Positions 45,696-55,137 of a stretch of DNA of 55,137 bases are shown in pieces. Source of the DNA: Acetobacteraceae bacterium (lineage in GTDB: Bacteria; Pseudomonadota; Alphaproteobacteria; Acetobacterales; Acetobacteraceae). The position numbers and the translations under genes were made by a program. The DNA lies in NCBI GenBank assembly GCA_031291795.1, contig JARLIJ010000267.1:1-55137 (forward strand), in the 5' to 3' direction. Numbering within the stretch: the first letter of the stretch is position 1; the number at the start of each line of letters is the position of its first letter. Under the pieces are notes generated by a model, which was not told the origin of the DNA, did no database searches, and worked only from the letters and a program-made list of their open reading frames with translations.

Positions 45696-46394
45696 TCAGC
45701 GCGGCTGCAGGACGACGTCCGCCTCGGCCGTGGCGGTGACAGCCACGTCCTGGGGCGCCACGCTGGGGGCCGGTGCAACGGCGGCCAGGGCCATCGGTGC
45801 GGGCATCGCCGCGCGGTACAACGGCTGCTGGGGTTCGGCGGTGTCCAGGCGAATGTCCTTGAACTGCTCGAAGCGCAGGTCGAGCAGGCCGGCGGCCTCC
45901 TCCGCCCGCCCGCGCAGGGCCGTCAGCGCCTGCTTCGTCGCCTCCTGGTGCGCCCGCCGTTCGGCCTCCCGCGACAGGCGCCAGCCGAGGCTGCCGACCG
46001 CCAGGCCCTTCTGCTGCAACTCGCCCACCAGTTTCAGCAAGGCGGCGTCATCGTGGCTGGACAGATTGAGCGTCTGGGTGGCCTGCCACCGTTCGGTGCG
46101 GTCCTGGGGCGTGGGGCCGACCCGCCAGACGCCGTAGCCGCCGGTGGAAACCGTCACGCCCGGCTGTGCCTTCGTGCGGGCCAGCGCATCCTGCATCACG
46201 GTGTTCACCCGCGCCTGGGCTTCGGCAGCGGTGGCGCTGGTGGCCTCGATCCGCATGGCAGCGGCGAGTTCATCGGGTGCGGCCATCACGGTCGCGGTCT
46301 CGCCCAGATGCAGATGGGTTTCCGCCCACGCCGGTCCGGCGGCCAGGAGGGTACCGCACAGCAGAGTGGCGAGCAGGGCGCGGGGGCAACGCAT
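45696..46394 (-). CDS. SIMPL domain (DUF541) periplasmic protein
   Basis: 232 residues with signal peptide MRCPRALLATLLCGTLLAAG followed by PAWAET (cleavage after AWA). The mature part has the SIMPL/DUF541 pattern HLGETATVMAAPDELAAAMR, EAQARVNTVMQDALARTKA, GYGVWRVGPTPQDRTERWQA and AHQEATKQALTALRGRAEEA. Its role in bacteria is not well defined; relatives such as BP26 form periplasmic channel-like oligomers. ATG 46394 is used because it starts the signal peptide; the open frame extends 19 codons further upstream. It is followed at 4 bases by the TPR glycosyltransferase gene. Confidence 0.85.
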   Translation of the reverse strand: MRCPRALLATLLCGTLLAAGPAWAETHLHLGETATVMAAPDELAAAMRIEATSATAAEAQARVNTVMQDALARTKAQPGVTVSTGGYGVWRVGPTPQDRTERWQATQTLNLSSHDDAALLKLVGELQQKGLAVGSLGWRLSREAERRAHQEATKQALTALRGRAEEAAGLLDLRFEQFKDIRLDTAEPQQPLYRAAMPAPMALAAVAPAPSVAPQDVAVTATAEADVVLQPR

Positions 46395-46452
46395 CGGCGG
46401 GTTCCGGATCGGGATCGGCACTACCCTGCCCGGCGCTTGGATCGCGGGCAAG

Positions 46453-46611
46453 CTAGAGCGGTTTCACGGTGACTGGAAAACCCATGCCGTCATGGCCGGG
46501 CTTGTCCCGGCCATCTGTACCAGCACCGTGCCGCGATTGATGCCCGGGACAAGCCCGGCCATGACGATCTCTGACAATGGCAGGTTTCCAGTCAGCCGGA
46601 ACGTGCTCTAG
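46453..46611. repeat. 159-base nested palindromic element
   Basis: Outer arms CTAGAGCGGTTTCACGGTGA...(46453-46482) and the reverse of CTAGAGCACGTTCCGGCTGA...(46583-46611) pair imperfectly; inner arms GGCCGGGCTTGTCCCGGCC (46494-46512) and CCGGGACAAGCCCGGCCAT (46544-46562) pair as well. It has the same design as the layers inside 15082-15270. It ends 10 bases before the TetR operator palindrome. Confidence 0.75.
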
Positions 46612-46620
46612 GGCAGAGAA

Positions 46621-46637
46621 TACAATCTTGGATTGTA
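46621..46637. promoter_or_regulatory. palindromic operator upstream of TetR gene
   Basis: TACAATC-TTG-GATTGTA, perfect 7-base half-sites around a 3-base centre, 55 bases before the TetR-family start, in an A/T-rich segment. The position and symmetry suit an autoregulatory site. Confidence 0.6.
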
Positions 46638-46691
46638 GCGCTACACGCAGTGGTATAAGAACATAAATGGAACATCGTATGGAGCAGCCTG

Positions 46692-47402
46692 ATGGCATCA
46701 TCCTTCCTGTCGCTGGCCGAACCGGACACCGCCCCCACCGGAGCCCCTCCGGCGAACGACATCGTGCGCCACCATCGCGCGCGGACGGTCACGACGCAGG
46801 ACCATCCGGAATGGCTGCGCACCCGCCGCCAGATCCGCCGCGCGGCGGCGCGCCTGATCGGTGAACGGGGGGTGTTGCGGGCAACACCGCGGGCGATCGT
46901 GCGGGCTGCGGGCCTGCCGGGCATCACGCTCAGCGAGTGCTATCCGACGCGGGAAGCGCTGCTGGCGGATATCATGTCGCGCCATCTCGACGGCCTGACC
47001 TGCTGGGTCATCGCAGCGCGGGACGCGGCCGGCCAGGAGGGGGCGGCGGTGCAGATGGAGGCCATGATCGGGGCGTTCCTGGCCTCCGCACTGGCGGAGC
47101 GCAACGAGCACCGGCTGCTGCTGCAGGCGACGGACCTGCTGACGCCGCGGGCGCAGGCGCATGTGCGGCTGCGCTGCAACGGCCTGGCCGCGCTGTTCGG
47201 GGAAGCGCTGGCCGAGACGGTGCCGCAAGCGTCCGGGCCGGCGGTGAAGCTGGCCTCGCTGACGCTGATGAGCGCGCTGAGCTGCGCGGTGCTGTGGTTC
47301 GATCCGGACGGCAGCGTCGCGGTGTCCGGCTATGCGCGGATGCTGGTCGGCATGGCGGTGGAGGGCGCGCGTGGCAGCGTGTTGCGGCGGGGACGGGGGT
47401 AG
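46692..47402 (+). CDS. TetR-family transcriptional regulator
   Basis: 236 residues. After a flexible N-terminal extension of about 40 residues comes the DNA-binding domain: TRRQIRRAAARLIGERGVLR, ATPRAIVRAAGLPGITLSEC and YPTREALLADIMSRHL (Tyr at the usual recognition-helix position). The C-terminal ligand domain ends with SGYARMLVGMAVEGARGSVL. The nearest candidate targets are itself, through the palindrome at 46621-46637, and the divergent SIMPL-glycosyltransferase pair. It converges on the molybdoenzyme gene with 7 bases between stops. Confidence 0.9.
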   Translation: MASSFLSLAEPDTAPTGAPPANDIVRHHRARTVTTQDHPEWLRTRRQIRRAAARLIGERGVLRATPRAIVRAAGLPGITLSECYPTREALLADIMSRHLDGLTCWVIAARDAAGQEGAAVQMEAMIGAFLASALAERNEHRLLLQATDLLTPRAQAHVRLRCNGLAALFGEALAETVPQASGPAVKLASLTLMSALSCAVLWFDPDGSVAVSGYARMLVGMAVEGARGSVLRRGRG

Positions 47403-47409
47403 CGCGCCC

Positions 47410-49623
47410 TCAGGCCACCCCCACGATCTCCACCTGGTTGGTGTTGTAGGTCGTCGCGCCGCAGGGGGCGGCACGGTCGGTGGTGAGCGCGTTGGCGCAG
47501 CCCTGCGTGTCGTCCCCGTCCTGCCCCGGCGCAAACCAGGCGCCCTCCTTGATCGAGACCACGCCCGGCGCGATGCGGTCGGTCACCTGGGCCGGCAGCA
47601 CGGTGGCGCCGATCGCATTGAACACGCGCACCCGCTGGCCATCGGCGATGCCGCGGGCCGCCGCATCGTCGGGATGCAGCCAGACCGTGTCCGGATCGAC
47701 CCGCGCGAGGTTCGGCTGGTTGCCGTGGATCGAATGCGTCCGCGCACGTGACTTCGGCGTGCACAGCATCAGCGGGAAGCGCGGGTCGGGTGCCGGCGGC
47801 TCGATCCAGGTCGGGATCGGCGGGATGTGGCCCAGGCCGTACGGATCCGGGTTGGCTGCAAGCGTCGTCGAGTACAGCTCGATCTTTCCCGATGGCGTCG
47901 CGAACGGATGGGCCTGCGGGTCGCGGATCTGGCGGGCGAAGGCAACAGCCTCTTCCGGCGGCGGGAAGCGCGCCACACCCGCTTCGGCGAACCGGTCGAA
48001 ATCACCCACCGCGTCGGCGGTCAGGGCGCGCAGCCACTGTTCCTCGGTCTTGTCGTTGTAGCTGTTGATCCCGACGCGACGGGACAACTCGTCGAAGATG
48101 TCGATGTCGTTGCGGCACTCGTACATCGGCGCGATCGCCTGGCGCATGTAGATCGCGTAGTGCCCTGCCCCGGCCCAGGGCGTCTGGACGTCGTTGCGTT
48201 CCCAGAAGGTGGTCGCCGGCAGCACGATATCGGCCAACCGCGCGGTTGGCGTCAGGAAATGGTCCTGCGCCACGATGAATTCCACGCCGTCGAGCGAGGC
48301 TGCCATCTTCCCCGCATTCGGGCACTGGTTGAACAGGTCGCCGCCGGCCGAATAGATCAACTTGATATCCGCGGGATAGCCGCCCGACGGGCCGCGCGCC
48401 AGCAGGTCGGCCAGCAGCGGGGACGCCACTTTCGACTGGATGGGGTTCTTGCCGATCGGCAGGCTTCTTATTCCCGCCCGACCGGTGACACCGTTGCTGA
48501 CGCCGGAATTGCCGCCGCGGATGCCGACATTGCCGGTGATCGCCGCCAGCGCGTAGGCGGCACGGTGGAACTGCTCGCCATACAGCGTGCGCCCCGGCGC
48601 GTAGCCGGCCTGGATCGCCGCCGGCTTGCTGGTGGCGAATTCGATCGCCAGCCGCCGGATCGTCGCCGCCGGAATGCCGGTGATCGCCGCGGCCCATTCC
48701 GGGGTTTTCACGACACCGTCGGCCTCGCCCATCAGGTACGCGCGGTAGGACCCGCCCGCAGGGGCACCCGGCGGCAGATGCGCCTCGTCGAAGCCCAGCA
48801 CATGGCGGTCGCAATAGGCCTGGTCGTGCAGGCCCTCGGCCACGATGACCTGCGCCATGGCGAGCAGCGCCGCGGTGTCGGTCGAGGGTCGGATCGCGAC
48901 ATGCTCGTCCGCCAACTGCCGGCTGGTCATGGTCTGGCGCGGATCGACGCAGACGATGCGCGTGCCCTGCTGCTTCGCCTGCTTCAGGAACGCCATGGTG
49001 CCGGTGCCGAACGTGCCGTCGCCGGGGCTCCAGCCCCACATCAGGATGAACTTCGAGTTGACGTAGTCCGACGGTTCGCGCCCCGCCGCCTTGTAGTTCA
49101 CCGACGCGCCATAGGTCATGTGGACCGCGAACACCTCGGCCTCGGCCGACATGTTCGACCACAGATCGGTGCAGCCGCCGAACATATACAGGAACCGCTG
49201 CGCCGCGACGCGCCCGTGCAGCATCGACGTGCTGCCGGTACGGGACGCATCCAGGATCGCCGCGTTGCCGTATTCGGTGCGGACCCGGAGCATCTCGCGC
49301 GCCACCTCGTCCAGCGCCTCGTCCCAGGTGATGCGCGCGAACCGGCCGGAGCCGCGCGGGCCGGTGCGACGCATCGGGTATTGCAGCCGGTCGGGATGGT
49401 AGGTGCGCTCGACCTGTCCGACGCCACGGGCGCAGGCGGGCAGCGGCGGATGGTCCGGGTTCCACCGTCGCTGGTCGGTCGAGATGCGCACGATCCGGCC
49501 GTCCTGCACGTGCGCATTGACGACGCAGCGACCGCCGCAGTTATGGCCGCAGGTGCTGGTGACGACGGTCTCGCCGGGTCGTGCGGCGACGCGCGGGGCC
49601 TCGTAGATCGTTTCGTTCGGCAT
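47410..49623 (-). CDS. DmsA-like molybdopterin oxidoreductase
   Basis: 737 residues, DMSO-reductase family. The [4Fe-4S] site is Cys25, Cys29, Cys33 (CGHNCGGRC) and Cys64 (LPACARG). The molybdenum-ligand position is Ser in GGCTDLWSNMSAEAEV. Sequence similarity to DmsA runs end to end, including RTYHPDRLQYPMRRTGPRGS, RIVCVDPRQTMTSRQLADE, AAITGNVGIRGGNSG, QDHFLTPTARLADIVLPAT and the C-terminal TTYNTNQVEIVGV. Unlike DmsA it has no Tat signal peptide from either ATG (49623 or 49653) and no DmsB or DmsC gene nearby, so it may work in the cytoplasm with an unknown partner. The true substrate is not established. Confidence 0.85.
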   Translation of the reverse strand: MPNETIYEAPRVAARPGETVVTSTCGHNCGGRCVVNAHVQDGRIVRISTDQRRWNPDHPPLPACARGVGQVERTYHPDRLQYPMRRTGPRGSGRFARITWDEALDEVAREMLRVRTEYGNAAILDASRTGSTSMLHGRVAAQRFLYMFGGCTDLWSNMSAEAEVFAVHMTYGASVNYKAAGREPSDYVNSKFILMWGWSPGDGTFGTGTMAFLKQAKQQGTRIVCVDPRQTMTSRQLADEHVAIRPSTDTAALLAMAQVIVAEGLHDQAYCDRHVLGFDEAHLPPGAPAGGSYRAYLMGEADGVVKTPEWAAAITGIPAATIRRLAIEFATSKPAAIQAGYAPGRTLYGEQFHRAAYALAAITGNVGIRGGNSGVSNGVTGRAGIRSLPIGKNPIQSKVASPLLADLLARGPSGGYPADIKLIYSAGGDLFNQCPNAGKMAASLDGVEFIVAQDHFLTPTARLADIVLPATTFWERNDVQTPWAGAGHYAIYMRQAIAPMYECRNDIDIFDELSRRVGINSYNDKTEEQWLRALTADAVGDFDRFAEAGVARFPPPEEAVAFARQIRDPQAHPFATPSGKIELYSTTLAANPDPYGLGHIPPIPTWIEPPAPDPRFPLMLCTPKSRARTHSIHGNQPNLARVDPDTVWLHPDDAAARGIADGQRVRVFNAIGATVLPAQVTDRIAPGVVSIKEGAWFAPGQDGDDTQGCANALTTDRAAPCGATTYNTNQVEIVGVA

Positions 49624-49658
49624 CCGGATCTGCCCCCATGACGTGCGGCCCATCCACC

Positions 49659-50062
49659 TTAACAGGCATGGCGCCCACCGCTACTGCCATGCGTGGCTCG
49701 CAAGACCGGCTGGAGAAGGGCTGTCCGGTGGAAGCCCTCGGCCGCCAGCAGCGATGCCGGCATGCAGAGGGCCGCGGCAACCCCGGGTGCCAGCAGGTCG
49801 TGCAGGAGATATTGGCCGGCCAGGATGATCGGGACGTGGACGAGATACAGGCTTCATAGCCGCCCCACAGCAGCCGCAGCGGCGTCTCGAACAATGCCCA
49901 CTCGAACGCCCCGTGCGGCACAGTCGCGTGGTCGGATATCTGAAAGCGCGCGAAATCCGGCAGCACCATGAGCGTATGGTGGAACATGACGACAAGCGCA
50001 GCGACACCGCGTAATCCATCGAGTGCAGCGATGCTGCCGGCGGAGAGGGTGGGCCCGGGCAA
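49659..50062 (-). pseudogene. acyltransferase 3 (OafA-type) pseudogene, core deleted
   Basis: The minus-strand frame from ATG 50062 gives the N-terminus of an acyltransferase-3 protein (SIAALDGLRGVAALVVMFHH, the catalytic His region, then ALFETPLRLLWGGYEA). Near 49856 the sequence passes into another frame, LYLVHVPIILAGQYLLHDLL, then APGVAAALCMPASLLAAEGF, which is the C-terminal end of such proteins (SLYLVHVP motif), stopping at 49659. About 250 residues in the middle are missing and the junction is out of frame. The gene is therefore dead. Related proteins O-acylate surface glycans. Confidence 0.8.
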
Positions 50063-50177
50063 ATGCAGCTCGCTTCCCTACAGCAAGAGCACGCTAACCC
50101 TTTCTGCACTCAAACGAAAGGTTCGCGACGCCCGGCGACCACGCAATGAAACAGCACCCTGCCGGCCGCATTGGCGG

Positions 50178-51644
50178 TCAGGGGGCGATGCTGATCGGCT
50201 CGCCGAGCGGCAGCCGCTCCGGTGTCTTTACCTGGATCAGGTGCCCGCTCATCAGCTCGATCTCGATTGCAAGTGCCAGGCCGTCGGTCGATGGTGCCAC
50301 ACCCTCGAACGCAAGCTCCGTGTCCACGCCGGAGCACAGCGCATTCCACGCGGAATAGAGGCCGTTGCCGTTGACCAGGTTTTGCACGTCCGGCCGCGGC
50401 CGCCACACCGGGGTCTCGCGCGTCACGCCTTCCAGCGTGATCCGGAGCCACCGGATATCGGCATTGACCAGGCACCAGCCAGACAGTTGCAGCCCGATGC
50501 CGTCCTGGGTCGGCCGTGCCTCCAGGCCGAACGACCACTGCCGCGGCAGGCCGCCCGCCGGGTCGGGCGGGACTTCGGCCAGGAAATCTGCCTCCTCGTC
50601 CGGTTCCGGACCACGGAAGCTGCGCTGCTGCGGGCCGACGCCTTTCTCCAGCCACAGCAGGAACATCGACGACTGGTCGCGCGGGCTGAGCAAGCCGATG
50701 TAGCGCGACGCATAAGCCGGCAGCAGCTGCATCACGTCCCGCCGCACCGCGTCACCGACACCCAACTGGCTGCACAACGTGGAGACGACCGCAACGCCGG
50801 TGGCATGGACGCCGCAAGGCAGCGCCTCCGCCGAGGCGAAACCCAGCTCAAGCCCCATCTGCTCGAACGCATCGGCCTCGAACATGTGCTTGTCCTCGAG
50901 GGACACGAGGAACGCGAGGTCGCCCTGGTGCAGCATCGCGCGGCGGCCTTCGGAGAGCACGTTGTGCAGCTTCTGCCGGTCCTGCGAGAATGCGTCGCCG
51001 CGCGACTGGAGCTGCGCCACCACGTCGGCCAGCGTGTGCATCAATGCCCGATGGAAGCGCAGGTTCGGCTCCAGGAAGAGCGCTCGGCCGCCGGGTTTGA
51101 GGCTGCGGAACACCTCGGCGAGAAAGCCGCGCACATCGAGGATATGGTGCAGTACCGAGGTGCCGGCGCAGGTATCGAACACGGCGTCGCGGAACATGTT
51201 CTCCTCGCCGCTATAGGTCGCGAACGCGACCGGGATGCGTGCGAGCAGGCCGCGCGACGCGAGCTGGTCACGGCAGGCCGAGAGCATGGCGACGGACACG
51301 TCGGTCAACACCGCATCGCGGGCACTGCCGCTGGCAAGCAACGCGCGGGAGAACAGCCCGGTGCCGCAGCCAACTTCGAGCACGGAGCCGAAACTCTCCG
51401 GCCAGCGATCGCCGGCAAAGCGCTGTATCGCCTGGTATCTCTGCGCGGCTCGGTCGTCGTCGACGCCATGCGTCTCGTCGTATTGGTCGGCATCCAGCAT
51501 CGTATCGAACCGGCCACGCACGAAGTCCACCACGCCGTTCTGCACGAACACCGGTTCGTTGCAGGACCGGCACGCCAGGTAGTCGGCGTTGAACGGACGC
51601 AGCGCGCCGCGGCACAGCGGGCAGTGGAACTTGTCGAGCAGCAT
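50178..51644 (-). CDS. Zn-ribbon SAM methyltransferase with beta-sandwich tail
   Basis: 488 residues in three parts. Residues 1-45: Trm112-like zinc ribbon with Cys8, Cys11, Cys25, Cys28 (FHCPLCRG, YLACRSCNEP). About 55-300: class I methyltransferase, SAM loop VLEVGCGTGLFSRALLASG (88-106), TSVLHHILDVRGFLAEVFRS and LKPGGRALFLEPN. About 350-488: a beta-rich domain (GLQLSGWCLVNADIRWLRIT, VWRPRPDVQNLVNGNGLYSA) of the type fused to glycosyltransferases of surface glycans. The start ATG 51644 overlaps the TGA of the upstream SnoaL-like gene (TGATG), so it is coupled. It is the last gene of the 54963-50178 operon. The methyl acceptor is unknown; the tail suggests a glycan or glycolipid. Confidence 0.85.
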   Translation of the reverse strand: MLLDKFHCPLCRGALRPFNADYLACRSCNEPVFVQNGVVDFVRGRFDTMLDADQYDETHGVDDDRAAQRYQAIQRFAGDRWPESFGSVLEVGCGTGLFSRALLASGSARDAVLTDVSVAMLSACRDQLASRGLLARIPVAFATYSGEENMFRDAVFDTCAGTSVLHHILDVRGFLAEVFRSLKPGGRALFLEPNLRFHRALMHTLADVVAQLQSRGDAFSQDRQKLHNVLSEGRRAMLHQGDLAFLVSLEDKHMFEADAFEQMGLELGFASAEALPCGVHATGVAVVSTLCSQLGVGDAVRRDVMQLLPAYASRYIGLLSPRDQSSMFLLWLEKGVGPQQRSFRGPEPDEEADFLAEVPPDPAGGLPRQWSFGLEARPTQDGIGLQLSGWCLVNADIRWLRITLEGVTRETPVWRPRPDVQNLVNGNGLYSAWNALCSGVDTELAFEGVAPSTDGLALAIEIELMSGHLIQVKTPERLPLGEPISIAP

Positions 51645-52099
51645 CACGATGCGGGCTTCTCCGGCTTGTCGCGGAAGGAGCGGGTGGGCACGTCGCGAAA
51701 CAGCGACATGTGGGTGTGCTGTGCGACAAAGGATGCGTCGGGCGAGGGCCGCACCAGCACGACCGTGGTGCGACCGGGCCGATCGTACGGCGTGCCGTCC
51801 TGCCGGTAGCCGGTGGAGTCGAACACGCCCATGCCGACCGCCTGCAGCCGGTCGGGCGAGACGATCGCGCGGATATCGGGGCGGAAGCGAAACCCGTCGA
51901 TGTGGTGCCAGACGTTGCGCCACTGCACCCGTTCGGCTTCGTCGCGGCCGGTCATGAAATCGGTGAAGGTGCCGAACGCAATCATGTCCTCGGCAAAGAT
52001 CGGGCGGGCGGCCACGAAGTCGACCGCCTGCACGTGGTCGGCGAGGGTCTGGAACCAGTGCCGCACGGCGGCGAGGTCGTCGGGATGCGGCTCTGCCAT
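51644..52099 (-). CDS. SnoaL-like / DUF4440-type small protein
   Basis: 151 residues with the cone-shaped NTF2 fold: AVRHWFQTLADHVQAVDFVA, ARPIFAEDMIAFGTFTDFMT, VQWRNVWHHIDGFRFRPDIR and TTVVLVRPSPDASFVAQHTH. Such proteins act as isomerases, cyclases or ligand binders in small-molecule pathways, or have unknown roles. ATG 52099 has AAGGAG six bases upstream. A longer TTG start at 52114 is less likely. It lies 11 bases after the enoyl-CoA hydratase gene and overlaps the methyltransferase start. Confidence 0.75.
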   Translation of the reverse strand: MAEPHPDDLAAVRHWFQTLADHVQAVDFVAARPIFAEDMIAFGTFTDFMTGRDEAERVQWRNVWHHIDGFRFRPDIRAIVSPDRLQAVGMGVFDSTGYRQDGTPYDRPGRTTVVLVRPSPDASFVAQHTHMSLFRDVPTRSFRDKPEKPAS

Positions 52100-52110
52100 G
52101 ACAGTCTCCT

Positions 52111-52848
52111 TCAACTCCCGCGGAACACTGGCTTGCGCTTTTCCTTGTAGGCGGCAATGCCTTCCTGCAGGTCGGCGGACTGGCGCACGGTGGCCATGGT
52201 CTGGCTGACCGCGACCATACGCTCGATCGGGCCAACCGGCATGATCTCGTTGACCAGGCGTTTCAGCGTGTTGACCACCAGCGGCGCGGACTCCACGAGT
52301 TCCTGGGCCATCGCCAGGGCCTCGGCCTCATGCTGGCCGTTGGGCACCACGCGGTTGACGAAGCCGACATCGTAGGCGCGCTGCGCCGGGACCTTGGTGC
52401 CCAGCAGCATGACCTCCATGGCCAGCTTGTGCGGCATGCGGCTGACCAGGCTGCTGATGCCGCCCGCGGTCGTGCCGAGCTTCGCCTCGGGGTAGTAGAA
52501 CAGGGTGTTTTCGGTGGAAACCATCAGGTCGCACATCATCACCATAACGATGCCGCCGCCCACCACCCAGCCGGTGGTTGCCGCAATGATCGGCTTGTCG
52601 GTCCGGAAGCCCACATTCGGGATTGCCCGCCACAGCTCCGGCAGGTCCGTCACGTCGGCACCCGAGGTGAACGCACGCTCGCCGGCCGAACTCAGGATCG
52701 CGACGCGCTTTTCCGGATCGGCATCGAAGTTCTGGAACGCACGCTGCAGCTCGACCGCGACGGCCCGGCTGATCGCGTTCAGCTTCTCCGGGCGGTTGAT
52801 CCGGATGATCGCGATCGGCCCGCGGTCCTCCACGCTGACGACGTTCAT
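52111..52848 (-). CDS. enoyl-CoA hydratase/isomerase family protein
   Basis: 245 residues, crotonase fold. IIRINRPEKLNAISRAVAVE at the start, oxyanion-hole segment RAFTSGADVTDLPE, then TTGWVVGGGIVMVMMCDLMV, where the second oxyanion glycine sits. The first catalytic Glu of true hydratases would fall near MVSTENTLFYYPEAKLGTTA; the GTTAGG loop departs from the usual PEV.LG..P pattern. The reaction may thus be isomerisation, hydrolysis or C-C bond cleavage and not simple hydration. It is in the middle of the pterin-like operon, 19 bases after the PTPS-like gene. Confidence 0.88.
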   Translation of the reverse strand: MNVVSVEDRGPIAIIRINRPEKLNAISRAVAVELQRAFQNFDADPEKRVAILSSAGERAFTSGADVTDLPELWRAIPNVGFRTDKPIIAATTGWVVGGGIVMVMMCDLMVSTENTLFYYPEAKLGTTAGGISSLVSRMPHKLAMEVMLLGTKVPAQRAYDVGFVNRVVPNGQHEAEALAMAQELVESAPLVVNTLKRLVNEIMPVGPIERMVAVSQTMATVRQSADLQEGIAAYKEKRKPVFRGS

Positions 52849-52867
52849 GGTGTGGTTTCCCCGTTCG

Positions 52868-53269
52868 TTATGCGATTGGACCCTCGTATGCGGCCCATGC
52901 GGTCGGCGCCTCGCGCACCAGGATCTTCATGGCGGTGACGGCACACCCGCCCTCGCCTAGCTTCCCGTCGCGACAGGCCGCGGCGAGCAGGGTGTGGATG
53001 TGGAACGCCATGTATTCGGTGGTCGTGTTGATGCCCGCGAACGCCGGATTGTCGTCGAGGTTGGTGTAGTCGACGGTCGCCAGCACGCGGCGCAGTTCGA
53101 CCTTGGCGAGGCCGATATCGACCAGCAACTGGTGCGGATCGAGCTGCGGGGCGCGGAACTCCGCCTCCACCGCGAAGGTGGCGCCGTGCAGGCGCTGGGC
53201 GGGGCCGAATTCCTCGCCCTGGAAGCTATGGGCGACCATGATGTGGTCGCAGACGGTCAGGCTGAACAT
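52868..53269 (-). CDS. 6-pyruvoyl-tetrahydropterin synthase / QueD family
   Basis: 133 residues, T-fold. Zinc histidines are visible: MVAHSFQGEEFGPAQRLHGA contains the first His and the paired RLHGA His; DYTNLDDNPAFAGINTTTEY contains the Asp and the Thr/Glu-type terminal part. The Cys of the catalytic triad found in mammalian PTPS and QueD is not obvious at the usual place. The start codon follows directly on the alcohol-dehydrogenase stop (no gap). Acting on dihydroneopterin triphosphate or a related pteridine is known for the family; the substrate here is inferred from the RibD-type neighbour. Confidence 0.85.
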   Translation of the reverse strand: MFSLTVCDHIMVAHSFQGEEFGPAQRLHGATFAVEAEFRAPQLDPHQLLVDIGLAKVELRRVLATVDYTNLDDNPAFAGINTTTEYMAFHIHTLLAAACRDGKLGEGGCAVTAMKILVREAPTAWAAYEGPIA

Positions 53270-54241
53270 TCACCTTCTCCCGTAGCTGATCACGTGGCAC
53301 AGCCCACCTTGTGCCAGGATCCGCGGCATCTCTCGCGGCAGATCGTCGAACGCGGTCGGCCCATCCAGAACAGCGTCATAGGCGGGATCGGCCAGCAGAT
53401 CGAGTGCCGTCGCCAGCCGTTCGGCATGGCTCCGCCGGCCGCGCATGGCGGGTGCAACCATGCCGACCTGGGTGGCGATCAGACGCAACCGGCGGGCATG
53501 GAAGGCCTCCCCGAGCGGCAGGGCGGGCGCCTGGTCGCCATACCAGGAGGCTTCGACGATGCGGGCCTCGGGGGCGGCGCGGTCCAGCGCCAGGCGCAGG
53601 CCGGCTTCGGTGGCGGAAGCGTGGACGACCAGTTCCTGGTCGCGTGGCGCGGCATCGGGGGCCGCGAAGCTGCAGCCGAAGCGGTGGGCAAGTGCGGCAC
53701 GGGACGGGTTGGTGTCGACGATCGTCACACGGGTTGCAGGGATGCGCGCCAGCAACGACGCCGCGAGCAGCCCGACCACGCCGGCACCGATCACCAGCAC
53801 GCGCTCGCCGGCAAGCGGGACCGCGTCCCACAGCAGGTTGAGCGCGGTCTCCATGTTCGCCGCCAGCACCGCGCGCTGGGTGGGCACGGCATCAGGCACC
53901 GGGATGCACATGGCAGTGGGGGCGACGAATGCCTCCTGGTGCGGGTGCAGGACGAAGACGCGGCGTCCGTCCGCCTCGCCCACGGTCGCGTAGCCGTATT
54001 TCACCGGGAACGGGAATTTGCCGGCCATCAGCGGCGCGCGCATCGCGGCGTATTGGCTGGGGGGCACGCGGCCGGCGAACACCAGCGCCTCGGTGCCGCG
54101 CGAGACGCCGCTTGCCAGGCTGCGCACCAGGGTCTCGCCGGGGGTCGGGGACGGCAGCGTCTCCGGCTGCAGGGCGCCGACGCCGGGCGCAACCATCCAG
54201 AACGCGCGGGTCATGTGTCCCGCCGTGGGATGCGGGATCAT
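53270..54241 (-). CDS. zinc-type alcohol dehydrogenase (MDR) without typical zinc site
   Basis: 323 residues of the medium-chain dehydrogenase/reductase superfamily. The Rossmann signature is GERVLVIGAGVVGLLAASLL with TIVDTNPSRAALAHRFG; the N-terminal half has LVRSLASGVSRGTEALVFAG and FPFPVKYGYATVGE, the pattern of Zn-ADH-like proteins with SGISRGTE instead of CG.C..D, so the catalytic zinc ligands are lost. This resembles bacteriochlorophyllide/threonine-dehydrogenase-like enzymes of biosynthetic clusters. ATG 54241 overlaps the stop of the RibD-like gene (ATGA) and has GAGGGAGG; ATG 54214 is an alternative nine codons on. It passes straight into the PTPS-like gene. Confidence 0.85.
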   Translation of the reverse strand: MIPHPTAGHMTRAFWMVAPGVGALQPETLPSPTPGETLVRSLASGVSRGTEALVFAGRVPPSQYAAMRAPLMAGKFPFPVKYGYATVGEADGRRVFVLHPHQEAFVAPTAMCIPVPDAVPTQRAVLAANMETALNLLWDAVPLAGERVLVIGAGVVGLLAASLLARIPATRVTIVDTNPSRAALAHRFGCSFAAPDAAPRDQELVVHASATEAGLRLALDRAAPEARIVEASWYGDQAPALPLGEAFHARRLRLIATQVGMVAPAMRGRRSHAERLATALDLLADPAYDAVLDGPTAFDDLPREMPRILAQGGLCHVISYGRR

Positions 54242-54963
54242 GCCTCCCTCAGCGGGATATCGAGCAGCACGTCGCAGCCCAGCCGATAGGTCGACCAGCC
54301 GAAGCGGCGCGCGTCGGCCAACGCACCGACCGCAGGCATCGGGAAGGCCTTCACGCCGCCGCCCATCAGCAACGGTGCCACCGTGACGTGCAGCCGGTCG
54401 AGCAGGCCCGCGGCGAGGAACCGGGTGACCGTCACGCCACCGCCCTCGACGAACACGCGCCGCAGGCCGCGCTCCGCCAATGCCGCCAGCACCGCCAGCA
54501 GATCGAGGCCGTCCGCCTCGCGTGGGACGCGCAACACCTCGGCCGCGCCCACACGCGCGCAGACGCGGGCATCCGTCGCGGCCACCACCAGCGTTTCGGT
54601 GCCGCCGAGGAATACGCGGTGCCGGGACGTCAGCCGACAGGACGGGTCCAGCACCACCCTGACCGGACTGGCTCCCTCCACCAGGCGGGTGGTGAGTTGC
54701 GGGTCGTCCGCCAGCACCGTGCCCACGCCCACCACGACCGCATCCGAAAGCGCGCGCAGCCGGTGGGTATGGGCGATGTCCTGCGGCCCGCTGATCCAGT
54801 GCGACTGGCCGGTGGGGGTGGCGATGTAGCCGTCGAGCGACTGGGCGAGGCGCCCGAGCACGAAGGCGGATGCGGCAAGGAGCGGACCGTACAGCGGCAC
54901 GCCACCGCACGCCGCACGGCGATCCAGCAGGCCGCGCCATGCCTCGGGAGACAGTTCGTCCAT
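54238..54963 (-). CDS. RibD C-terminal-domain pyrimidine reductase-like protein
   Basis: 241 residues of the RibD_C/dihydrofolate-reductase-like family: VLGRLAQSLDGYIATPTGQS, HWISGPQDIAHTHRLRALSD, AVVVGVGTVLADDPQLTTRL, then VFVEGGGVTVTRFLAAGLLD and VAPLLMGGGVKAF. The N-terminal deaminase domain of RibD is absent, so it is a stand-alone NADPH reductase for a phosphoribosylaminouracil-type or pteridine-type compound. It is the first gene of the six-gene operon. ATG 54963 is the only start that keeps the N-terminal 35-residue extension. No riboflavin gene is nearby in the window. Confidence 0.87.
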   Translation of the reverse strand: MDELSPEAWRGLLDRRAACGGVPLYGPLLAASAFVLGRLAQSLDGYIATPTGQSHWISGPQDIAHTHRLRALSDAVVVGVGTVLADDPQLTTRLVEGASPVRVVLDPSCRLTSRHRVFLGGTETLVVAATDARVCARVGAAEVLRVPREADGLDLLAVLAALAERGLRRVFVEGGGVTVTRFLAAGLLDRLHVTVAPLLMGGGVKAFPMPAVGALADARRFGWSTYRLGCDVLLDIPLREA

Positions 54964-55137
54964 GGCAGCGCCAGTATCACGCCGCCATCATGGCCGGTAG
55001 CTCAGAGGCCAGGGCAATTGCTTGCAGCAAGCAAGGGCGGGGCGCTGCCCCGCACCCCGCCAGGGGCCTGGCCCCTGGACCCATTCTGTTGGTGTTCATC
55101 GGGGGAGAGGGGCTACTCGGACCAACCAAGGCCCGAG
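54964..55137. other. window edge with G/C-rich hairpins
   Basis: No gene start seen. It contains GGGGCGCTGCCCCGCACCCC and CCAGGGGCCTGGCCCCTGG (about 55036-55080), which form consecutive small hairpins, and an A/C-free-looking direct repeat TTGCAGCAAGCAAG near 55022. Such strings are dispersed in acetic-acid-bacteria-type genomes. The promoter of the six-gene operon should lie here, but no -35/-10 pair was clear. Confidence 0.5.

Follow-up and report, generated by a model that had tools for sequence, protein, structure and literature searches.

We analysed a 55,137-nucleotide contig from an Acetobacteraceae bacterium (GenBank assembly GCA_031291795.1, contig JARLIJ010000267.1; the whole stretch is called the window below), near the end of which lies a six-gene operon. 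Three of its genes, encoding a RibD_C-type reductase, a dehydrogenase of the MDR family without zinc ligands and a protein of the PTPS-IV branch of the PTPS family, form a conserved unit. We propose, with somewhat less than even confidence, that this trio is the core of a pathway making a pterin- or aminopyrimidine-type metabolite from GTP. Sequence and family searches of the window placed the six genes on the minus strand at positions 50178-54963, where all six named in a preliminary description of this DNA are present. They are listed here in order of transcription, with the best family match of each:

54238..54963, minus strand: RibD_C-type reductase, 241 aa, without deaminase domain; core (PF01872, E 6.8e-44)
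53270..54241, minus strand: MDR dehydrogenase, lacking zinc ligands, BchC-like; core (NCBIfam TIGR01202 bchC, E 1e-12, far below cut-off)
52868..53269, minus strand: PTPS-IV protein with FGPAQ signature; core (PF01242, E 2.2e-21)
52111..52848, minus strand: crotonase-fold protein; accessory, one Acetobacteraceae branch (PF00378, E 8.2e-51)
51644..52099, minus strand: SnoaL-like protein; accessory (PF13474, E 4.9e-5, barely above cut-off)
50178..51644, minus strand: Zn-ribbon S-adenosylmethionine (SAM) methyltransferase P0006 with conserved C-terminal tail; accessory (PF08241, E 1.1e-16)

Conservation of the RibD_C-MDR-PTPS unit

Conservation was assessed in two sets of relatives. Scanning genome contigs with the window PTPS protein yielded 45 loci, almost all carrying the label Acetobacteraceae or Rhodospirillales, in stretches often shorter than the loci fetched for the second set. 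The latter came from 398 Pseudomonadota genomes searched with a profile built on 17 PTPS-IV proteins, which placed PTPS-IV in 27 genomes (window included) and in 20 of 213 genera; the other 26 genomes, all fetched, are the sampled set, with partners counted within 8 kb of the PTPS gene. The MDR gene adjoins the PTPS gene on the same strand in all 45 scan loci (gap up to 753 nt, mostly below 100) and in all 26 sampled genomes (gap 13-128 nt), while RibD_C lies close by in 40 of the 45 and 22 of the 26. The preliminary description had made its reading depend on the trio being neighbours in other genomes, and so they are. The scan loci with no RibD_C nearby are L040, whose contig is cut inside the MDR gene, L018, where RibD_C sits at a second locus, and L011, L045 and L046. 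To control for chance linkage, we counted how often RibD_C falls within 10 kb of each of three genes: it does so for PTPS-IV in 23 of 27 genomes (window included), for the separate QueD-like copy in 0 of 7 and for FolE in 0 of 26. Counting the window genome, 67 of the 150 genomes of its own family carry PTPS-IV. A literature search that left most subscription journals outside and included some partial hit lists revealed no account of the full gene set.

The MDR-PTPS pair also occurs on plasmids, where 20 records were matched with the PTPS and 32 with the MDR protein. Of 15 stretches opened, 13 carry both genes, with varying partners; their sources are Streptomyces, Microbacterium, Rhizobium, Peteryoungia, Methylosinus, Palleronia, another Rhodobacteraceae strain, Thiodictyon and haloarchaea. 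The Streptomyces clusters L049 and L056 encode RibA and a creatininase, and two Haloarcula plasmids have a GTP cyclohydrolase IIa gene directly before MDR-PTPS.

Active sites of the three core enzymes

With FGPAQ at residues 21-25, the window PTPS protein (P0003) bears the signature of PTPS-IV. The neighbourhood of this group, cluster-node 62 in the AGeNNT study, was reported in 2017 with PF01872 and PF00925, the section of that source that describes it assigning no function (PMC5445326). Measured against that neighbourhood, the window operon has RibD_C and no RibA-type gene. In all 82 bacterial PTPS-IV rows of our alignment, Ala occupies both the position of the PTPS catalytic Cys (A24) and the third zinc His position (A30), Gln is kept at Q25, and H14, H28, E85 and E120 are invariant; the catalytic, zinc-binding and substrate-binding roles of the aligned positions are those known for the PTPS family. 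Alignment with structure 2g64 sets its Cys opposite Ala24 and the second His of its HGH opposite Ala30. Ala is likewise found at the Ala24 position in the QueD chains 4ntk and 3qna, which we take to be Cys mutants. The solved structure closest to the window PTPS is 3d7j (SCO6650 of Streptomyces coelicolor, E 2.7e-40), which shares the FGPAQ...HGA motif and was deposited as an uncharacterised protein.

The window PTPS scores 37.1 bits against the QueD family TIGR03367, for which the cut-off is 89.25, and no other operon protein matched a queuosine family. The preliminary description had called the PTPS a QueD homologue, a view that needs revising: bacterial PTPS-IV should not perform QueD-type chemistry, since Ala stands at the Cys position and HGA in place of HGH in every bacterial row. 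The QueD name, 6-carboxytetrahydropterin synthase, is carried by 14 of the 20 plasmid hits, and is misleading as a label for PTPS-IV in public records.

In the reductase (P0001), the RibD_C domain covers residues 35-209 of 241, and the N-terminal deaminase domain of RibD is not present. Its best match in the PDB is 6p8c, a 2,5-diamino-6-ribosylamino-4(3H)-pyrimidinone 5'-phosphate reductase (E 9.5e-27); bacterial RibD scores close behind, so sequence alone leaves undecided which pyrimidine the enzyme reduces. The preliminary description's view of the MDR protein as zinc-less held up: Ser48 stands at the first Cys-ligand position, YGY is found where zinc MDRs have the motif GHE, and Cys exceeds 80% in no column of the 84 rows (83 relatives and a reference; residues are numbered as in P0002, whose start is one codon upstream of the ATG). 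No MDR family of Pfam reached its cut-off (ADH_zinc_N, 0.0022, was below). In NCBIfam, an HpnZ-type alcohol dehydrogenase (7.3e-13) and BchC, a bacteriochlorophyllide dehydrogenase, were matched far below cut-off, the likeness to BchC extending over MDR residues 25-248 but amounting to 47.8 bits against a cut-off of 291.25.

Partner genes, the proposed pathway and rival explanations

Beyond the trio, the sampled genomes (to which the window does not belong) share a wider set of partners, whose family identities were assigned separately. A GT4 glycosyltransferase is present in 25/26 and a methyltransferase in 24/26; a CDP-alcohol phosphotransferase occurs in 12, a RibA-type GTP cyclohydrolase II in 11, a flippase-like LPG_synthase_TM protein in 10, an FkbM methyltransferase in 8, cytochrome b561 in 7 and a creatininase in 6. 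A search for GTP cyclohydrolase and glycosyltransferase partners had been suggested in the preliminary description, and relatives do have both; its statement that no riboflavin gene accompanies the operon is right for the window and wrong for the wider family, given the RibA-type genes in 11 clusters. With the trio conserved and partners of these two kinds beside it, a pteridine or aminopyrimidine product appears well motivated. A four-carbon-acid-sugar-type kinase (27/45 scan loci) and a class II aldolase (25/45) follow the GT4-type cluster, for example at L035 10890-12772, and are seen in none of the 26 sampled genomes; we treat them as a neighbouring operon.

The trio looks additional to ordinary pathways, copies of whose genes lie elsewhere in the same genomes. 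Of the 27 PTPS-IV genomes, 26 have FolE, and in 26 another RibD_C-family gene lies outside the cluster; a distinct, strongly matching QueD-like copy is present in 7, never within 10 kb of PTPS-IV. Additional PTPS-family matches, weaker and in longer frames, occur in the 11 genomes from outside the window's class; 9 genomes have no PTPS match other than PTPS-IV. The window genome is 69% complete, and contigs other than that of the operon carry a RibD_C frame of RibD length (378 aa, on contig C141), a RibA-type frame, FolE and a QueD-like gene. Most cluster RibD_C copies thus look additional to riboflavin synthesis. Ordinary riboflavin and folate synthesis were set aside as main explanations, RibD_C copies and FolE existing outside the cluster, as was queuosine, in view of the lost residues and of QueD-like copies unlinked to RibD_C. 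The riboflavin genes treated in an Arthrobacter paper are ordinary ones (PMC9608346). The window genome has another GTP cyclohydrolase II-like frame (contig C400, 2-958), its second, which is cut by the contig end and lies beside TetR-like and 2-oxoglutarate-oxygenase-like frames, apart from the cluster, to which we judged it by sight to be unrelated.

From the gene identities, neighbourhoods, distribution and active-site losses observed, we infer every chemical step of the following scheme. GTP cyclohydrolase II, encoded in the cluster in other species and here probably shared with riboflavin synthesis, would open GTP, and a creatininase-type hydrolase would remove the formyl group where it is left on. 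These first steps are suggested by the linked enzymes and by a creatininase-family enzyme of S. meliloti, which acts as a formamidase in riboflavin synthesis (PMC9478397). RibD_C would then reduce the ribosyl chain to ribityl without deamination, and the zinc-less MDR would oxidise a side-chain alcohol to a ketone. PTPS-IV might bind the guanine-like ring through its conserved Glu and help the 5-amino group close on that ketone, the product being a dihydroneopterin-type pterin formed without the usual zinc and Cys chemistry of PTPS. In most sampled species the GT4 and methyltransferase enzymes would decorate this pterin, and in many the CDP-alcohol phosphotransferase and flippase-like protein could yield a membrane-bound form; in the window's branch, decoration genes would have been replaced or moved to another locus. 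Extended to its full breadth, the scheme would amount to a second, FolE-independent route to dihydroneopterin-type pterins in bacteria and haloarchaea: after GTP ring opening and RibD_C reduction of the sugar, a zinc-less BchC-like dehydrogenase would reoxidise C2', and the ring would close on a PTPS fold whose bacterial version lacks the zinc site and Cys, with a product in many species glycosylated, methylated and phospholipid-borne, perhaps on periplasmic glucans in glucan-making species. This broad version is speculative, and we hold it to be quite unlikely.

A number of observations weigh against the proposed pathway. No metabolite is known for the cluster, and the route would reduce the sugar chain only to oxidise it again, whereas FolE, present in 26 of the 27 genomes, brings about the same isomerisation in one step. 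GTP cyclohydrolase was found in 0 of the 45 scan loci. The three cluster creatininases scanned matched best the mycofactocin peptidase MftE (106-147 bits, cut-off 172), and reached at most 37 bits against the deformylase ArfB (cut-off 180). SCO6655 of S. coelicolor reportedly yields a formylated intermediate through a Tyr-to-Met change, the mark of a formyl-retaining RibA. Met is found at this position in both Streptomyces clusters (2/2), but Tyr is kept in four other clusters with creatininase and RibA (L071, L073, L076 and L077) and in the remaining RibA rows, so that a general pairing of creatininase with Met-type RibA failed as a rule. In genome G047, listed as complete, the cluster RibD_C is the only one found; perhaps it has a second job in riboflavin synthesis, or perhaps the strain makes no riboflavin. 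The MDR protein matches the generic Rossmann family AlaDh_PNT_C just over its cut-off (7.6e-6), and two Streptomyces plasmids carry PTPS-IV without MDR. Finally, three aligned haloarchaeal PTPS proteins are 23-25% identical to that of the window, and His replaces Ala30 in all four haloarchaeal rows (L055 partial); given this low identity and the His, haloarchaeal PTPS occupies the equivalent slot but may belong to another subfamily.

The same enzymes could instead lead to a flavin- or lumazine-like product, with RibD_C and RibA, both riboflavin-type enzymes, supplying a ribityl pyrimidine that MDR and PTPS-IV alter to give a decorated flavin. RibA is found in 11 of the 26 clusters, as this alternative would have it. 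PTPS folds, however, are known for pterin-like rings, the cluster RibD_C is without the RibD deaminase domain, and no lumazine or riboflavin synthase is named in 14 annotated plasmid stretches, whose tables are incomplete and in which no search was aimed at these enzymes. We consider such a product unlikely.

A further alternative concerns the destination of the product. Genes for periplasmic glucans are frequent around the cluster: within about 9 kb on each side, MdoH (OpgH) occurs in 12 of the 26 sampled loci (two of them short pieces at the edge), MdoG in 6, and one or the other in 14. Of 22 genomes with MdoG, 6 have it within 10 kb of PTPS-IV, compared with 0 of 21 for a FolE-MdoG control. 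E. coli glucans carry phosphoglycerol and phosphoethanolamine substituents derived from phospholipids (PMC3818809), which makes a lipid-borne head group a serious rival. A glycosylated aminopyrimidine or pterin would be put on lipid by the CDP-alcohol phosphotransferase (12/26 loci), moved across the membrane, for which the flippase-like protein (10/26) is a candidate, and perhaps passed to osmoregulated periplasmic glucans, the Acetobacteraceae form being a soluble remnant. Against this, the CDP-alcohol phosphotransferase, the flippase-like protein, MdoH and MdoG were found in 0 of the 45 scan loci within the available stretches, which are often shorter than the sampled ones, and the link to glucan genes may reflect shared osmotic regulation. 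To our knowledge, Streptomyces and haloarchaea, which have the cluster, do not make periplasmic glucans. On balance, the head group is a doubtful explanation.

That the trio merely salvages or repairs damaged riboflavin or pterin intermediates, with no new product, fits its kinship with housekeeping enzymes and the FolE, other RibD_C copies and, often, other PTPS-family frames elsewhere in these genomes; we find it improbable, the conserved glycosyltransferase, methyltransferase and phosphotransferase partners pointing to a decorated product.

A role in coenzyme F420 synthesis is very improbable. A 2016 review states as unpublished work that PTPS-IV belongs to this pathway (PMC5041015), and the window's own genome has an FO synthase, CofH matching at 515.7 bits in an 813-aa frame (contig C348, 4311-5357), so that this bacterium may make F420. 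Archaeal-type GTP ring-opening steps feed F420 as well. That gene is on another contig than the operon, however, and CofH, the only F420 protein searched for, is above cut-off in that one genome of the 27, ten more having weak matches only. F420 was set aside as the main explanation on this co-occurrence. In genome G200 (contig C156, 8308-9319), strong CofH-like matches are split over frames and fall below cut-off, as if the gene were broken or misassembled.

The window's variant and comparison with known systems

The three genes downstream of the trio tell a narrower story. A crotonase gene lies near PTPS in 11 of the 45 scan loci and in none of the 26 sampled genomes, the Zn-ribbon methyltransferase is present in 6 scan loci, and SnoaL in two, L003 and L004, which are the window's two nearest relatives (L004 nearest by tree path). 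In the methyltransferase P0006 and six relatives, the N-terminal Zn-ribbon cysteines C9, C12, C26 and C29 (CxxC...CxxC) are invariant, and the C-terminal tail aligns in all seven. The preliminary description took this tail for a beta-sandwich and suggested from it a possible link of the product to a surface glycan; genes for periplasmic glucans lie around the cluster in other genomes. In a tree built from MDR and PTPS proteins joined end to end (45 rows, without L040; root placed for drawing only), a single change, with modest support (75/52), accounts for the 12 crotonase rows, window included, and they fall together with two GT4-type rows inside a 15-row group (99/93); nested as they are with GT4-type rows, the GT4 form looks ancestral to the crotonase form. 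Crotonase, SnoaL and the Zn-ribbon methyltransferase make up an accessory set, seen in a single Acetobacteraceae branch. The six genes had been presented as one pathway set, which stands for the trio and not for these three.

In 3 of the 11 other crotonase-type genomes, a relative of the pathway methyltransferase is found at a second locus beside cytochrome b561, and one of these loci also carries a RibD_C 63% identical to that of the window; the other 8 genomes and the window genome gave no match. By eye, at least two of the three second loci (L097, L098 and L099) have a similar long membrane-protein-like frame.

The preliminary description had all genes joined by coupled junctions. Three of the five are of this kind, namely a shared ATGA between RibD_C and MDR, a zero gap (TGA ATG) between MDR and PTPS and a TGATG overlap between SnoaL and the methyltransferase; the other two are short gaps of 19 nt (PTPS/crotonase) and 11 nt (crotonase/SnoaL). 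The contig ends at 55137, leaving 174 bases upstream of the operon's first start codon. In L004 the reductase is likewise the first gene of the set, preceded by flagellar-type genes recognised by eye. No Rfam family was matched at its gathering score in window positions 46000-55137 or seven fetched loci, no promoter-like site was found, and terminator-like sites were about as frequent as chance predicts (2 found against 2.5 expected). A short frame immediately downstream of the operon, at 49541-50109, has the look of a gene remnant, matching the first 31 positions of Acyl_transf_3 only (E 0.0003, below cut-off). The operon is followed by a molybdopterin oxidoreductase gene at 47413-49620; with a related gene after the cluster in L004, synteny extends past the six genes.

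PTPS-IV belongs to a much-studied enzyme family and is a recognised branch of it, but one whose function is open. By the counts above, its partners form a fixed set in bacteria and a related set in haloarchaea; the bacterial proteins have lost the usual catalytic residues, and the published F420 suggestion becomes unlikely for most of the bacteria sampled. A vague annotation is in this way turned into a defined orphan pathway, for whose reconstruction four or five enzymes and GTP could be enough.

Several known systems resemble the cluster in part. The glycosylated pterin predicted for many species would be akin to cyanopterin, limipterin, tepidopterin and solfapterin (PMC3546692, PMC13259868); most biological pterins, unlike the predicted one, start from FolE (PMC13259868), and no link of these glycosides to the cluster was seen. 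Archaeal-type GTP ring opening, by GTP cyclohydrolase III/IIa, ArfB and a RibD_C-type reductase, uses the same kinds of enzyme as the cluster, but the cluster creatininases lie far below the ArfB cut-off and nearer to MftE. We know of no place for MDR and PTPS-IV in that archaeal-type pathway. With cluster-node 62 of the AGeNNT study, for which RibD_C and GTP cyclohydrolase neighbours were reported, the cluster shares the FGPAQ signature; whereas the relevant section of that study names no MDR, GT4, methyltransferase, phosphotransferase or periplasmic-glucan partner and no crotonase form (PMC5445326), all of these accompany PTPS-IV in the genomes described here.

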